Made by a program: the position numbers and the translations under genes. A DNA stretch of 37,093 bases from an uncultured bacterium (GTDB lineage: Bacteria; Cyanobacteriota; Vampirovibrionia; Gastranaerophilales; Gastranaerophilaceae): NCBI GenBank assembly GCA_949291445.1, contig CASEVT010000047.1, positions 1-37,093 of the forward strand, in the 5' to 3' direction. This document shows, piece after piece, positions 9,095 through 32,976 of this stretch; the first letter of the stretch is position 1, and each line of letters opens with the position of its first letter. The notes beneath the pieces are model-generated. The model was not told the DNA's origin, made no database searches, and was given only the letters and a program-made list of their open reading frames with translations.

Positions 9095-10846
9095 ATGCTG
9101 CAACCCAAAGAAACACTAAAGAATATAAACATAGATGTATTCACAAACGAAGAATATAAACATCCCCTGTTAATGAAGTTGGATGCAAATGAGAACTATC
9201 TGGGTCCTTCACCAAAGGTTTTAAATTCTTTGGAACGGATTAACGTAAAGGACTTGTCACTATATCCGTCTTATGGTGAATTATACAAGAAGATTGCGGA
9301 AATTAACGACGTAAACACAGAAAACATAGCACTCACAAGCGGAACAAATGATGCAGTTAGAGCATTAATCTGTGCTTATATGAATACGGAAGATAAACTT
9401 CAAATCGCAACGCCTACTTTTTGGTCTCCTGAAATTTATACAGAAATAGAAGGAGCAAGCTGTGTAAAAGTCCCCTACACAGAAAAATGGATATTTCCGG
9501 AATCGGACTTTCTGCAAACAATAGATGACAAAACAAAAATAATACTGCTGACAAATCCGAATGATCCCACAGGAGAACTGATTAATCAGGAGTTTATAGA
9601 AAAACTTCTACAACTCCACCCGCAAAAGCTTATCATTATAAATGAGGCATACACAACTTATGCGAATGAATCATTCTGTAAAAATATAAATAAATATGAT
9701 AATGTAGCAATAATTCGTTCATTTTCAAAAGACTACGGACTTGCCGGTTTACGAATAGGTTACATATTAGCCAATGAAAACATTGTTGATAATGTAAAAA
9801 AGATACTTGCGCCCTATCCGGTAAACAACATCGCAACAATCGCCGCAATTGAAGCAATGAACGATAAAAGATATATGGAGTTTGTAAAAAAAGAAACAGA
9901 ACGTTCAAAACAAATACTGACTCTCGGACTTGAAAAATTAAAAGTAAAGGTTTTCAAATCTTACGCAAACTTTATTCTTGCAGACTTTGCTGAAAAAGTC
10001 GGAGAAGTTTATAACCTTTTCAAGGAAAATAATATTTTAGTAAAAAATTTTTTTAATAACGATGAGCTGAAGAGTTGTCTGAGAATCACAATACCGTCAG
10101 TAAATGCAACAAGAGAATTGCTCCGGCTCTTAACGCCCAAAGACACACTCGTGTTTGATTTGGACGGCGTACTTGTTGATGTTAATAACTCATCACTAAA
10201 TGCAGTAAAACAAACTTACGAAAATTTTACCGGACAAACTCTGTCCTATGCGGAAATACAAAATATAAAAAGCCAGAGTGAAATTGACAACAATTGGAAT
10301 CTTACACACCATCTGATTTGCTCCGCCGGATTTTATATGCCGTATGAAAGGATCGTTGAAGAATTTCAAAAGCTCTATTGGAATAATGGTCAGGGTCTGA
10401 TCAACAACGAAGAATTACTCGTCGACAGAGCACTGCTCAATAACCTCTCGAAAAAATACACCCTTGCAATATTTACTGACCGTACAAAACAAGAAACTGA
10501 GTTTACACTTGATAAATTTAAACTGAAACAATATTTTTCAATAGTAATTAGCGCAAACGACCTTCCAAAAGACCGGCAAAAACCTGACACGCTCGGATTG
10601 GATATTATAAAAAAAGAATTATGCCCCCTAAACATGTACTATCTAAGTACAACGACGGGCAGTGTGATTTGCGCAAAAAATTACAATATATTTTCCGTAG
10701 GCGTTCTCCCGCCATCAGATAAATCTGACGGACTAAAAGATATTTTCTATGTCAGCGGCGCAGATTATGTCATAAATAATATAAATGAAATAGAAGCCGC
10801 AATTTGCCAACAAAATGAAAAAAGACAAACTAATTCGCCCTACTAA
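9095..10846 (+). CDS. hisC: Histidinol-phosphate aminotransferase fused to a HAD-like domain
   Basis: 583 residues, far longer than HisC (about 350-360). Residues 1-347 are a class II aminotransferase of the HisC type: LDANENYLGPSP, LTNPNDPTGE, and PLP lysine K212 in SFSKDYGLAGLRIGY. It would convert imidazole-acetol phosphate to histidinol phosphate in histidine synthesis. From about 350 follows a haloacid-dehalogenase-type domain: motif I FDLDGVLVD (D355, D357), motif II Thr in LAIFTDRT, motif III Lys in RQKPDT. Motif IV, normally GDxxxD, reads MYYLSTTTGSVICAK (514-528) and has lost its acidic residues. The next pathway step is histidinol-phosphate phosphatase, so the fusion is logical, but the lost motif makes activity uncertain. 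Last gene of the ligA operon; no other his gene is near. Confidence 0.88.
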   Translation: MLQPKETLKNINIDVFTNEEYKHPLLMKLDANENYLGPSPKVLNSLERINVKDLSLYPSYGELYKKIAEINDVNTENIALTSGTNDAVRALICAYMNTEDKLQIATPTFWSPEIYTEIEGASCVKVPYTEKWIFPESDFLQTIDDKTKIILLTNPNDPTGELINQEFIEKLLQLHPQKLIIINEAYTTYANESFCKNINKYDNVAIIRSFSKDYGLAGLRIGYILANENIVDNVKKILAPYPVNNIATIAAIEAMNDKRYMEFVKKETERSKQILTLGLEKLKVKVFKSYANFILADFAEKVGEVYNLFKENNILVKNFFNNDELKSCLRITIPSVNATRELLRLLTPKDTLVFDLDGVLVDVNNSSLNAVKQTYENFTGQTLSYAEIQNIKSQSEIDNNWNLTHHLICSAGFYMPYERIVEEFQKLYWNNGQGLINNEELLVDRALLNNLSKKYTLAIFTDRTKQETEFTLDKFKLKQYFSIVISANDLPKDRQKPDTLGLDIIKKELCPLNMYYLSTTTGSVICAKNYNIFSVGVLPPSDKSDGLKDIFYVSGADYVINNINEIEAAICQQNEKRQTNSPY

Positions 10847-26993: not shown

Positions 26994-28907
26994 ATGGATA
27001 TATTCTCAAAAATAAAAGACTTCGTAAAACAGGTCAACGAAATTGAATACAGCATCTCAAACAATAAGCGGGAATTTCTGGAGATATACGAAAGAAATCT
27101 GGCACTTGAGCAAGAGATTCTGGAGCGCACCCAGGAATTAGATCAGGCAAATAAAGCCTTCTTAACCCTGAAACACGTTTGGGACTTAATGAATTCATCC
27201 CAACCTCTGACTACCGTTCTTGATAAGCTGGTCAACTCATTACACGGTGAAATGGGTTATATAAACAGTACAATACTGAAACTTGATGAGGATGAAAACG
27301 GAAAATATTTTACGATTAAGGCTTTCTCAATGAGTCCTATCTTCAAAAAGCTTTTGGACTACTCAAACGGTCAATTACAAGACAGCCGACTCTTTTATGA
27401 CAAAGATTCAACACTCGCAAGATGTCTTGAAGAACAAAAAATCCTCTGCACAAAAGAATACCTCACCAATATAAATTGTCTTTTAAAGGATTTTACGCTT
27501 GAACAAATTCAAGAGATTAATAAGCTTGGAATAAGCCGCCACTTGATATCAATCCCGCTGTATCAATCACAAAAACCGTTCGGGGTCATGCTGGTATTCT
27601 CACCCCGTGACAGCGTAACGGATAAAGAGCTAAACTTTCTCAGCCTATTTGCAAATCAGGTTGAAATGGCAATAACAATTGCCAACCTCTTTGAAACAAT
27701 CCGAAAAGAGGCAGTAACAGACGGTCTGACAGAGTTATACAACAGACGCTATTTTAATGAAGAACTAAGAAAAGAAGCAGACCGTGCAAAACGATTGAAC
27801 CAACCTTTTACGATCATAAGTCTTGATTTAGATTACCTGAAAAAAATAAACGATACTTACGGGCATGCAGCAGGTGACATAGCAATCAAAGCCATAGCAG
27901 ACGTGATGAAAAAGAATGCACGTTCAATAGATATCCCTGCACGTCTTGGCGGAGAAGAATTTTGCATATTGCTGCCGGGTATCGATTCAAAAGGCGGAAT
28001 GATTGCAGCAGAAAGAATTCGCTCGGCTATTGAATCATATGAAGTCGATGAAATTGGCAAAATTACAGCAAGTATCGGTGTAGGTACATATCCTGAACAT
28101 TCTCAAAACCTTGACGAACTACTGGAAATGACAGATCAGGCAATGTACAGATCGAAAATTAACGGCAGAAACAGAGTTACACTTGCCAAAAACGCAGAGG
28201 ACGAAAGCTGGCATACAATTGCATTCGGAGCCTTTGTTGACATAATCAACAAAAAAAGAATACCTATCCCCGATACACTTGCCGAAAATATAAGCACAAA
28301 GCTTGAATCAATGAAAAACGATTCTCTTAAAACAAGAGAAGCTAAAGATACTTTATATTCAATAGTGGATATGATGGCACAAACCTACAATCCGTCAATA
28401 AATATCGGCTCTACTAAGGAAAAAATTGCACTAGGAATAAAACTTGCACAGAAATTAGAAATTTCAAAAGAAGAAATAGACAAGTTAAAAATTGCAATGC
28501 TGCTCTATGACATCGGAAATATAATGATTCCAGAGGAAATATTTAACAAAAAATCACCACTGACCGAAGAAGAAAAAAATAAAATCCATGAACATCCGAT
28601 AATCGCAGCCAGAGAAATTCTTCAACCTATAAGTTCAATTACCGACATAATCCCCATTATCGAAAACCACCACGAAAACTGGGATGGCTCGGGATATCCA
28701 AATAAAAAATCCGGCAGCGAAATTCCTATTACATCACAAATCATACTGCTTATAGACGCATATACGGCAATGAGCCAAGATCGCCCGTACAGAAAAGCCT
28801 TACCGGTTGAAGAGATTATCAAAGTTATACAAAAAGATTCCGAAAAAAAATGGAACAAAGAAGTTGTTGACGTATTTGTAGGATTATTACATGAGCTTAT
28901 CCGCTAA
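26994..28907 (+). CDS. GAF-GGDEF-HD-GYP signalling protein; HD-GYP degenerate
   Basis: 637 residues, cytosolic. Order: coiled coil (about 5-60), GAF-like sensor (about 60-230), GGDEF (about 240-395), HD-GYP-like (about 440-637). The GGDEF domain looks active: DLDYLKKINDTYGHAAGD and GGEEF at 319-323, with an inhibitory RxxD site at R310-D313. It should make c-di-GMP with product inhibition. The HD-GYP half keeps HHE (559-561) and DGSGYP (564-569), but its HD dyad is YD (505-506) and the following Lys is Asn (YDIGN). A TTG at 26976 is an alternative start; TATAAT (26950-26955) supplies a promoter. It overlaps the next gene by 17 nt. Confidence 0.88.
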   Translation: MDIFSKIKDFVKQVNEIEYSISNNKREFLEIYERNLALEQEILERTQELDQANKAFLTLKHVWDLMNSSQPLTTVLDKLVNSLHGEMGYINSTILKLDEDENGKYFTIKAFSMSPIFKKLLDYSNGQLQDSRLFYDKDSTLARCLEEQKILCTKEYLTNINCLLKDFTLEQIQEINKLGISRHLISIPLYQSQKPFGVMLVFSPRDSVTDKELNFLSLFANQVEMAITIANLFETIRKEAVTDGLTELYNRRYFNEELRKEADRAKRLNQPFTIISLDLDYLKKINDTYGHAAGDIAIKAIADVMKKNARSIDIPARLGGEEFCILLPGIDSKGGMIAAERIRSAIESYEVDEIGKITASIGVGTYPEHSQNLDELLEMTDQAMYRSKINGRNRVTLAKNAEDESWHTIAFGAFVDIINKKRIPIPDTLAENISTKLESMKNDSLKTREAKDTLYSIVDMMAQTYNPSINIGSTKEKIALGIKLAQKLEISKEEIDKLKIAMLLYDIGNIMIPEEIFNKKSPLTEEEKNKIHEHPIIAAREILQPISSITDIIPIIENHHENWDGSGYPNKKSGSEIPITSQIILLIDAYTAMSQDRPYRKALPVEEIIKVIQKDSEKKWNKEVVDVFVGLLHELIR

Positions 28908-29244
28908 AATTGACGATATTATAACAAAACTATATAACTGGTGCACAACATATAAAGATCAAACCCTAATAAGAGACGTAACCAAACTTAGCAATACAAA
29001 GTTCGATGCCTACGTGGAAAGCTCAATTGCAACACCACTATCATTTACCGTTTTTGAACTGAGTGAAAAAGGCGAGCTTATAATAGATAAACAACAACGG
29101 GTTTTAGAAAGTCAGGCAGCGTTTTTTCTTTTTGTTAACCCGAAAACCGGCTGGATCTTCGCCATAAAAAACACTCTGGAAAATCAAAGAAAATTACTCA
29201 GCGCGCAACCGCTTCAAAACTTTAAGATTAAAATTCACGACTAA
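28891..29244 (+). CDS. Small protein coupled to the GGDEF/HD-GYP gene, unknown
   Basis: 117 residues, not recognised. Begins MSLSAKIDDIITKLYNWCTTY, followed by a mixed alpha/beta region (FTVFELSEKGELIIDKQQR, AFFLFVNPKTGWIFAIKN). No signal peptide. Its ATG lies 17 nt inside the end of the GGDEF/HD-GYP gene, so the two are translationally coupled and may be functional partners. It overlaps the convergent nucleotidyltransferase gene by 17 bp at its 3' end. Confidence 0.68.
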   Translation: MSLSAKIDDIITKLYNWCTTYKDQTLIRDVTKLSNTKFDAYVESSIATPLSFTVFELSEKGELIIDKQQRVLESQAAFFLFVNPKTGWIFAIKNTLENQRKLLSAQPLQNFKIKIHD

Positions 29245-30078: not shown

Positions 30079-30936
30079 ATGAAAAAAAATATAGCTATAT
30101 TATTAATACTGATTTTTTGCATAAGTCCGGCATTTGCTGATGAGATAGAACTTAAGGGTGTAGAAAAAAATAAAATTAAAATGACACCCAAAGTCGTTAG
30201 AGACGAAAAGAGCCTTGCCATAGACGAAGAAACGGCAATGAAAGGCATTATCTCATTACAGCAGCAAAAGGATATTGAAGACATAGAAGGTCTGTGGACC
30301 GCAACAGTTGAAAACAATAGCATAATCAAATTTGCGATGAAAAAACTTTCAATCCCTCCTGAGCAGCAGCGTGTACACTCCTCAATTATGGCGAAATCAC
30401 TCTCAGCGCTGGTTAGCGGTGCATCGTTTATTCCGGCAATGTTTGGTGCAGACTATATGGTTCAATCAGCCTCCTACGCAACGGGTAGGCTGGCTAATAA
30501 TTACCTCAACCGTAACAACATGCCCAAAGAAACCCCGCTTACGGATACAGAACTGATAGAACTTGCAGGAATGATAGAGTCGCTGCAGGATTCAATAATA
30601 AATTCTTACTACAACTACAAAGCAGCACTTACACAAATTAAAGAAACACGTCAACAGCTTGTGTTGTACAACAAAAATTACTCTGAAGCTCTTAAAAATA
30701 AAGATGATATGGAGATTCTAGTCTCATCATCAATGTATGACGACCTTTTATACCAAGAATACAAATTAACTCAAGAAGCAAAAAAGTACTACATGGATCT
30801 GCAAAGGCTTGCAGGTAAAAAAGCCGTAGAAAATTTGAATCTGTATCAGTACGCATTTAAAGATGAACTCTACTCAACAAAATCAATAATAAACAAGAAC
30901 ATGCCGGTACAAAATAAGAAAGGTGCTACTAAATGA
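30079..30936 (+). CDS. Exported coiled-coil protein, first of a paralogous pair
   Basis: 285 residues. Signal peptide MKKNIAILLILIFCISPAFA, cleavage before DEIE. A middle hydrophobic, Gly/Ala/Ser-rich stretch (about 96-135, SLSALVSGASFIPAMFGADY) is flanked by helices. About 145-260 is a long helical hairpin (TELIELAGMIESLQDSIINS, YYNYKAALTQIKETRQQLVL, YQEYKLTQEAKKYYMDLQRL), reminiscent of one TolC half. It is too short for a full TolC and lacks its beta strands. It shares about the same plan and scattered identities with the next gene. AGGA precedes the ATG. Envelope or periplasm; function unknown. Confidence 0.72.
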   Translation: MKKNIAILLILIFCISPAFADEIELKGVEKNKIKMTPKVVRDEKSLAIDEETAMKGIISLQQQKDIEDIEGLWTATVENNSIIKFAMKKLSIPPEQQRVHSSIMAKSLSALVSGASFIPAMFGADYMVQSASYATGRLANNYLNRNNMPKETPLTDTELIELAGMIESLQDSIINSYYNYKAALTQIKETRQQLVLYNKNYSEALKNKDDMEILVSSSMYDDLLYQEYKLTQEAKKYYMDLQRLAGKKAVENLNLYQYAFKDELYSTKSIINKNMPVQNKKGATK

Positions 30937-31811
30937 TAAAAAAACTTGCATACGCAATTATGCTCAGCAGCATTATCATTAGCCCATCACTGGCGATCTC
31001 TGTTGAAGATGTGACAGAGCCGATTTGCCCGTCATATCGACTAGGAACGGGAAGTGTACCGGAAAAGATATACAAAGTAGTTGAGACAAAAAAACAAATC
31101 CCGACAAGAGATACGACATATAATGCACAAAATGCCGTAAAAGACCTGACTTATGCTGATTTAAGCTTAAAAAAAATCTCAAAAGAGATCTCTGATGATC
31201 TGGAACTGGAATCTGAACAGACACTTAACGACATAAAACTCCTCTGGGTCGGTGCAGCACAAAAAAGTGAGACAATAAAATTCATAATCTACAAACTTGC
31301 AAATCCGGATGAAGAGAAACCCAATTCCAGTGTAGTAAAAAAGATCATTAAACCAATTGCAACCGCAGGAAGTCTTGCCGGAATCGGAGTAGGCAACCCT
31401 ATTGCCGCAGTATCTGCCATCATGGGCAGCAGCGTGCTTGGAAATTTATCTGTTGATGAAAAGGAATTAAACTACAAATTTTCAAAAGTTAACGATGCAG
31501 ACATGGTTGTACTCATAAGAAAAGTAGAAGAATTACAAAGAAAAATTGTAAACTACTATTTTGACTATATGGCCTCAAGAGCCGCACTTATAAAAACCGA
31601 TGAAATAGTAAACAAACGCAAAAAAATATTCTCAGCAACACAAAATAAGTCAAAAGAACAAATCCTCATGGCAGATTCATTTTACAGAGAAGCTTTGCAA
31701 CTTCAAAACAAAGCAAAAGCGGATTTCTTATCAAAACGTTCTGCCCTTGAACAAATAGTCGGACTTGACACAATGATGGACTTTGAAGAAATGCTTTCAC
31801 AAAGAAAGTAA
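30933..31811 (+). CDS. Exported coiled-coil protein, second of a paralogous pair
   Basis: 292 residues, overlapping the previous stop by 4 nt (ATGA). Signal peptide MIKKLAYAIMLSSIIISPSLA. Matching blocks with its neighbour: DIKLLWVGAAQKSETIKFII versus DIEGLWTATVENNSIIKFAM; a Gly/Ala hydrophobic middle (TAGSLAGIGVGNPIAAVSAI); then a helical hairpin (EELQRKIVNYYFDYMASRAA, DSFYREALQLQNKAKADFL). It carries a longer N-terminal insert with two Cys-free Pro-rich stretches. A hetero-oligomeric envelope complex is a natural guess. Convergent with the serine hydrolase gene, 10 nt apart. Confidence 0.72.
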   Translation: MIKKLAYAIMLSSIIISPSLAISVEDVTEPICPSYRLGTGSVPEKIYKVVETKKQIPTRDTTYNAQNAVKDLTYADLSLKKISKEISDDLELESEQTLNDIKLLWVGAAQKSETIKFIIYKLANPDEEKPNSSVVKKIIKPIATAGSLAGIGVGNPIAAVSAIMGSSVLGNLSVDEKELNYKFSKVNDADMVVLIRKVEELQRKIVNYYFDYMASRAALIKTDEIVNKRKKIFSATQNKSKEQILMADSFYREALQLQNKAKADFLSKRSALEQIVGLDTMMDFEEMLSQRK

Positions 31812-31821
31812 TATTGAATCA

Positions 31822-32976
31822 CTATATCCCCATCATATGTGCATAAATTAGTGAAGAAGCCTTAACAATAAACTCTTTGCCCAAAGGCGAGTTATAAGGA
31901 CGGTTAACAAGAATAACAACAATGTATTTTTTGCCATTAGGGGTATAGACAATACCTGCATCACCAAGCATCTTGCCAATGTCACCTGTTTTATGAATAA
32001 AAAGTGCTTCAGGAGGCAACCCTGCCTGAATTAGCCTATTATTATGAACATGGCTCATATAGTCAACTATTTTTTCGCGAGAATTCAAAGACAAAAAGCT
32101 GGGATTGTCGATATTATAGAGCATTCGACCCATTTCTTTAGCAGTAGTCACGTTTGTACCGGCAAGATCAGGCAACCAGTCATTTATTCGTGTATTTTTG
32201 AGCCCCCATTCTCTTAGCCCATTATTAACATCGTTCATCCCGCCAATTGCCGACATAATCATGTTTGTAGCGGAATTATCCGACTCAGTAATCATCACAC
32301 GTGCAAGTTCATCAATAGTATAAGATTTCTTCAACCCCTTAAACTGCAAACTGCCAGAACCCTCAGATTTATAAAATTCTGTCATCGGAATTCTTGTATC
32401 AAGCGTTACTTGACCTGCTTCAATGGATTTAAACAGTCTAATCAATACGGGGATTTTAATTATACTTGCAGCAGAATAAATTTTATCAGCATTAAAATTC
32501 GCATACCTACCGGACTCGTAGTCCCATACGTAAACTGACGGACTTAATGAAGGATATAAATTCGAAAGATTTGTCAATTTTGCATCAAGCAGGGGCATTT
32601 CGTACGTTTCATACAAATTTAGCATTTGAGGTTTTGAAGTTTCGGTCGGGCGAAGCATATTTACGCCTAAAAAGTGAGAATTGTTCAAGTACAAAGAAGT
32701 TGGACTGTACAATTTAGCATAATCTGTCTTAACGGCAGGATACTTATCCGCCTTCATAAACAGCGGACGAGTAATATTATCAATATAATGAGGAGCAACA
32801 ACTAAAAGCATTAACACAAAAACCGCAATTTTAACTGCAACTACAAAAATATTAGCTTTTTGCGATTTTTTCTTCGTATAAGGACGGGTTAAAGCAGGTC
32901 TTACATTCGATGCATATCTGTGCGATGTGCCGTAATAATCGTACTTTATTTCTGGTTTGTACGCCGGTTTTGCCAA
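31822..32976 (-). CDS. Class A beta-lactamase-fold serine hydrolase, membrane-anchored
   Basis: 384 residues. Cytosolic basic tail (1-40), one membrane helix (about 43-62, IFVVAVKIAVFVLMLLVV), then a periplasmic penicillin-recognising domain. Motifs: SxxK S171-K174 (AASIIKIPVL), SDN S232-N234 (ITESDNSATN) and KTG K329-G331 (FIHKTGDIG). The omega loop reads NDWLPDLAGTN where TEM enzymes have DRWEPELNE, so the deacylating Glu166 is replaced by Leu (L268) and the loop is shortened. It is probably a cell-wall peptidase or transpeptidase relative rather than a true beta-lactamase; the latter reading is inference. Confidence 0.85.
   Translation of the reverse strand: MAKPAYKPEIKYDYYGTSHRYASNVRPALTRPYTKKKSQKANIFVVAVKIAVFVLMLLVVAPHYIDNITRPLFMKADKYPAVKTDYAKLYSPTSLYLNNSHFLGVNMLRPTETSKPQMLNLYETYEMPLLDAKLTNLSNLYPSLSPSVYVWDYESGRYANFNADKIYSAASIIKIPVLIRLFKSIEAGQVTLDTRIPMTEFYKSEGSGSLQFKGLKKSYTIDELARVMITESDNSATNMIMSAIGGMNDVNNGLREWGLKNTRINDWLPDLAGTNVTTAKEMGRMLYNIDNPSFLSLNSREKIVDYMSHVHNNRLIQAGLPPEALFIHKTGDIGKMLGDAGIVYTPNGKKYIVVILVNRPYNSPLGKEFIVKASSLIYAHMMGI

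Follow-up and report, generated by a model that had tools for sequence, protein, structure and literature searches.

The closest described counterparts of the gene pair reported here are the outer membrane factors of the TolC/OEP family (PF02321; TolC, OprM, CusC), whose protomers consist of two structural repeats that arose by gene duplication, with a C-terminal motif that may be ancestral (PMC8277102). The pair, genes A and B, lies in a 37,093-nucleotide stretch of DNA, called the window below, from an uncultured gut bacterium of the order Gastranaerophilales in the cyanobacterial class Vampirovibrionia. As in a TolC/OEP repeat, each product has an N-terminal helix with an NP-like motif, an inter-helix segment and two long helices ending in glycine, in a repeat of ~181-187 aa (~181 residues from the LW helix to the LAG/VG glycine in A and B; 187 positions in the OEP model). 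The pair holds two such repeats, each with a long, presumably periplasmic, helical hairpin in the models. Unlike TolC/OEP proteins, A and B carry one repeat per protein in most lineages and are found in one chain only in family f3, their inter-helix segment is hydrophobic and Gly/Ala-rich and lacks a beta-hairpin signature, and their genes do not stand beside efflux genes.

Two other systems invite comparison. The HlyD/AcrA adaptors (PF16576) also have a long periplasmic helical hairpin, but no lipoyl or beta-barrel domain was matched in A or B, their domain order is different, and no adaptor domain is among the Pfam matches listed for A, B or their relatives. The ClyA/HBL/AHL proteins resemble A and B as helical proteins with a hydrophobic hairpin and a multi-component layout; the order of the helices, however, appears different, and the A/B family is conserved class-wide.

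The overlapping genes and their products

The first-pass annotation of the window described two overlapping genes encoding signal-peptide proteins, and the open frames and Sec-type signals agree with it (Table 1). Genes A and B share an ATGA at 30933-30936, and their signal peptides mark both products as proteins exported by Sec. Does the overlap imply equal production of the two proteins, as had been proposed? The start of gene A has a Shine-Dalgarno-like TAGGAT 6 nt upstream, and AGAAAGGTG, also Shine-Dalgarno-like, lies 7 nt 5' of the ATG of gene B. Because B has this site of its own, the overlap permits coupling but does not prove equal dosage, and the proposal is not supported.

Table 1. 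Position of genes A and B and of their parts in the window
Feature	Position	Strand	Basis
Gene A: exported OEP-like protein with one repeat, 285 aa	30079..30936	+	ORF; conserved order-wide
A, predicted Sec signal peptide, residues 1-20, ending ...SPAFA before DE	30079..30138	+	sequence; model helix 3-14
A, LW...IKF block, residues 72-85; putative counterpart of OEP first helix with NP-like motif	30292..30333	+	
A, Gly/Ala/Ser-rich hydrophobic segment, residues 99-142, at the place of the OEP beta hairpin	30373..30504	+	alpha periodicity
A, helical hairpin, residues 156-207 and 210-245, ending LAG	30544..30813	+	AlphaFold2; aligned with OEP long helices
Gene B, Shine-Dalgarno-like AGAAAGGTG, within the end of gene A	30917..30925	+	read from sequence
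Gene B: exported paralog of A, 292 aa, overlapping it by ATGA	30933..31811	+	ORF; BLASTP; pair adjacency
B, predicted Sec signal peptide, residues 1-21, ending ...SPSLA before IS	30933..30995	+	sequence; model helix 2-15
B, LW...IKF block, residues 104-117	31242..31283	+	
B, Gly/Ala-rich hydrophobic segment, residues 132-172	31326..31448	+	periodicity and hydropathy
B, helical hairpin, residues 188-238 and 241-276, ending VG	31494..31760	+	AlphaFold2; top profile match OEP repeat 2

A and B share a layout in which LWTATVENNSIIKF and LWVGAAQKSETIKF are followed by a Gly/Ala-rich stretch and then by a helical hairpin. This common plan of LW...IKF block, Gly/Ala stretch and hairpin had already been recognized in the first reading, and we find it conserved across the class. 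Residues L72, W73, N80, I83 and F85 of A are invariant. Over the entire family set, the first-block LW, the hairpin Y..Y and the closing glycine vary little or not at all. AlphaFold2 models, built with 67 and 68 sequences, uphold the TolC-like hairpins claimed earlier, with pLDDT mostly 84-93 in the hairpin block of A and 77-93 in that of B; the Gly/Ala region of both proteins is modeled at low confidence (pLDDT below about 55).

Sequence comparison identifies A and B as anciently duplicated paralogs. BLASTP aligns them at E = 2e-14 over 168 residues. A lack of similarity between the two in profile comparison had been named as a result that would refute the first reading; the A-family and B-family profiles match at 99.7% over 192 columns. 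A tree of 48 sequences puts the two in separate groups (support 95/90 and 97/92), and the duplication therefore predates the sampled order. A scan of genome contigs found both genes present, co-directional and adjacent at 80 of 80 loci, separated by -26 to +8 nt, and adjacent pairs also occur outside the order, in families f46, f50 and f51. Four genomes of family f3 have the A and B domains fused in one open frame of 522-573 aa. Family f8, also outside the order, has a single gene instead of a pair, next to recA: in five of five genomes (L189-L193) the single-copy homolog lies directly upstream of a recA-like gene.

Similarity to the TolC/OEP repeat

A clear match to a known family, which would have spoken against an undescribed system, did not emerge from the Pfam and NCBIfam scans of A and B: no model rose above cut-off, and these scans, like that of PHROGs, returned chance-level matches only. 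With E-values up to 10 admitted, OEP was not among the Pfam matches of A or B, the best match of a PDB sequence search with the A or B profile had E = 0.96, and an Rfam scan of the whole window was empty. With no clear family match and a two-gene unit that is conserved, and fused in f3, the earlier suggestion of an undescribed paired exported system is supported. Across the wider family, PF02321 is matched more often than any other Pfam family by B members (6 of 36) and by distant members (5 of 34), and it matches one of 34 A members; the best E overall is 4.4e-4, in a distant member. The Pfam gathering score of PF02321 is 22 bits, which no family member reaches; L288, a lipid-anchored paralog, scores 15.8 bits. 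Against a home-made OEP HMM, five single-gene f8 homologs gave negative scores.

In profile-profile comparison, the OEP score rises as the profiles deepen. About 86 comparisons were made, covering same-genome OEPs, adaptors, OmpH and ~40 neighbor families, plus all reversals, with only mature regions (lacking signal peptides) compared between OEP and A/B. OEP came first in every test run. With A and B alone its lead over adaptors is small, and for the single-family profile of A it is narrow (OEP 25.3, adaptors 24.4), so no conclusion is based on single-family profiles; the top match of the single-family profile of B is OEP repeat 2. A merged profile of A, B and f8 gave 35.0 for OEP, 29.0 for adaptors and 23.7 for the next decoy; adding class-wide members raised OEP to 45.0 (64.9%) and adaptors to 35.9, with the next decoy at 23.3. 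The strongest profile probability, 76.4%, was obtained between the class-wide profile and a single-repeat OEP profile, with adaptors second. Both OEP repeats match the class-wide profile in register (45.0 and 42.8), the LW...N..I.F block aligning with the NNP helix, YYNYKAAL with YYNLLFAM and LQRLAG with LNNAMG. Reversed-profile controls scored 11-15.

How much of this signal reflects ancestry? The OEP score rises with added relatives while most decoys stay flat, as common descent predicts. The adaptor score rises too, so part of the OEP signal is generic to hairpins, and the score of 58.9 between the OEP and adaptor profiles indicates that hairpin similarity alone can be strong. On balance we think it probable that A and B share descent with OEP, a conclusion that the profiles support short of proof. 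The profile search against TolC called for at the outset thus has a mixed outcome: OEP ranks first, but below the gathering score and at a probability of 76% at the strongest. Likewise, the remark that each protein is too short for TolC holds for length, which fits that of a single repeat because TolC comprises two such repeats in one chain; as a sign that the proteins are unrelated to TolC it probably fails, given the OEP match. Foldseek searches with the model of A returned CusC at a probability of 0.99 (E = 0.16) and OprM-type proteins at 0.96, while B gave mixed matches to F-BAR, AcrA and NodT, as well as AhlC at 0.41; E-values for both were 0.03 or worse.

The adaptor scores and the matches of B raise another explanation, in which A and B form a class-specific periplasmic or membrane-attached coiled-coil scaffold (a tether, or an adaptor-like or chaperone-like protein) and resemble OEP by convergence. 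Adaptor hairpins are the second-best profile match, AcrA and F-BAR appear among the Foldseek matches of B, occurrence in nearly the whole class points to a general function in the envelope, and no transporter consistently adjoins the pair. Against convergence, OEP outscores adaptors consistently over the whole repeat, the NP-like N-terminal helix included, and it is the OEP match that grows with profile depth while most decoys do not. We therefore regard such a scaffold as rather unlikely, though a serious contender.

The hydrophobic segment and a proposed assembly

The OEP beta hairpin has a recognizable signature, and the segment that occupies its place in A and B lacks it by every sequence measure applied. 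Beta periodicity exceeds alpha periodicity in 26-27% of windows in A and B versus 55-64% in same-genome OEPs, for which the hydrophobic-moment control region was set by landmark sequence. Aromatic residues make up 8% of the segment in A and 1% in B versus 15-16% in the same OEPs, and mean hydropathy is +0.7 to +0.95 versus about -0.5. AlphaFold2 places no strands in either model, although the Gly/Ala region is of low confidence. The claim that the proteins lack beta strands accords with periodicity, composition and AlphaFold2, none of which makes a strand evident, and the Gly/Ala segment is probably helical. Because the beta-barrel feature is missing from the sequence measures, we do not file A and B as OEP members.

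Measured by landmark, the inter-helix segment is near constant in length (69-72 residues) and hydrophobic in all families, with median best 19-residue KD means of 1.0-1.66, which is borderline for membrane helices. A paralog of 604-681 aa (L286-L289), which occurs chiefly in the large-genome family f45 and has one representative in f49, shares the LW motif (in most members) and a YYRY...AG hairpin with A and B. It differs from them in its lipobox cysteine, its long Pro-rich (Pro/Gly-rich) linker, its C-terminal Ig-like/DUF4352-like domain and the lack of the hydrophobic segment; its inter-helix segment in f45 is 39 residues long and hydrophilic (n = 3 measured). That a lipobox-bearing paralog does without the hydrophobic segment suggests that this segment may be the membrane contact of A and B.

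The explanation that we favor, at even odds, takes A and B for divergent TolC relatives of one repeat each, which assemble together in the envelope with the hydrophobic segment contacting a membrane. A and B would be produced from one transcript and exported by Sec. Each would represent one OEP repeat, composed of the LW...N..I.F helix, the inter-helix segment and the long periplasmic hairpin ending in glycine, with a hydrophobic, Gly/Ala-rich and probably helical hairpin taking the place of the OEP beta hairpin. The long hairpins of A and B may then co-assemble in the periplasm into a TolC-like bundle or barrel of helices, which the hydrophobic segments would hold in or at an envelope membrane, either touching or crossing it. 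The hetero-oligomer, its membrane insertion and any channel function are conjectural parts of this proposal. For filament formation, which the first-pass annotation had also entertained, nothing was found. If A and B are derived from TolC, an outer membrane factor can have its two repeats as separate or fused partners and its beta part is replaceable, and the pair would bear on the origin of TolC by duplication of a single repeat.

Could the pair form a complete exit duct? A TolC-derived hetero-oligomer with an alpha-helical glycine-zipper barrel, not a beta barrel, as its outer-membrane part would be an outer membrane factor with a swapped membrane fold, near-universal in one class; we consider this improbable. 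It is a poor prospect that A and B are instead very divergent but true beta-barrel OEPs, each contributing one beta hairpin so that three A and three B make a TolC channel: the pair has the repeat number of TolC, a fused form exists and the inter-helix segment is of a length that could accommodate two strands, but periodicity, aromatics and hydropathy are all unlike those of same-genome OEPs and AlphaFold2 gives no strands. Alpha-helical pore formers of the ClyA/HBL/AHL type, in which two soluble components insert a hydrophobic hairpin into a target membrane, are a very improbable model despite the hydrophobic Gly/Ala hairpin between helices, the weak Pfam HBL match in two of 34 A members (best 0.016) and the AhlC match of B, since all such matches are sub-threshold, neither A nor B of the window matches Pfam Bacillus_HBL, few helices precede the hydrophobic part, and the occurrence of the family in nearly all of the class's genomes favors a housekeeping role in the envelope.

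Distribution and gene neighborhood

Gene A has matches in 37 of 39 close relatives, 35 of which show two side-by-side matches. Distribution in relatives had been proposed as a check on the pair, and with a joint profile the family is detected in 372 of the 382 Vampirovibrionia genomes and in 95 of the 97 genera. A phylum-wide draw of 244 genomes contained 113 with matches, all within the class; 131 had no match, and the 20 of these listed with their kinship are outside the class. A family that has neither a name nor a Pfam or NCBIfam model is present in almost all genomes of a non-photosynthetic cyanobacterial class, and the genomes sampled elsewhere in the phylum Cyanobacteriota gave no match to it. 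None of the literature searched describes it. For gut Melainabacteria, the family offers a handle for experiments on the envelope.

In the window, a nucleotidyltransferase gene (DUF4037) lies upstream of A on the opposite strand. Downstream of B, at 31822-32976 (-), a PF13354 beta-lactamase-family protein with an N-terminal hydrophobic segment is encoded, which may be either a true beta-lactamase or an enzyme acting on peptidoglycan. Of the 80 loci L040-L119, 50 have a lipoate-protein-ligase-like gene after B on the same strand, often with a slight overlap, and 58 have a TPR-like gene divergently upstream of the pair; both kinds of gene were named by eye. At three loci of f46 and f51 (L291, L292 and L298), the pair is near LptA/LptD_N-, LptB- and LptF/LptG-like genes. 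A partner based on neighborhood was rejected: neighbors vary by family (lipoate ligase, TPR, Lpt genes, recA, miaA-like), so we claim no functional partner, and among the loci examined no efflux gene is consistently beside the pair.

The 1.8 Mb genome G000 encodes about seven full two-repeat OEP proteins (15 OEP matches), many for its size, on contigs C5, C35, C67, C87, C88, C104 and C122. Elsewhere in the window, an ORF of 117 aa at 28891-29244 (+), which has no Pfam match, overlaps the end of a GGDEF protein gene. A 583 aa frame at 9095-10846 (+) seems, by eye, to be a fusion of a HisC-like aminotransferase and a HAD-like phosphatase domain.
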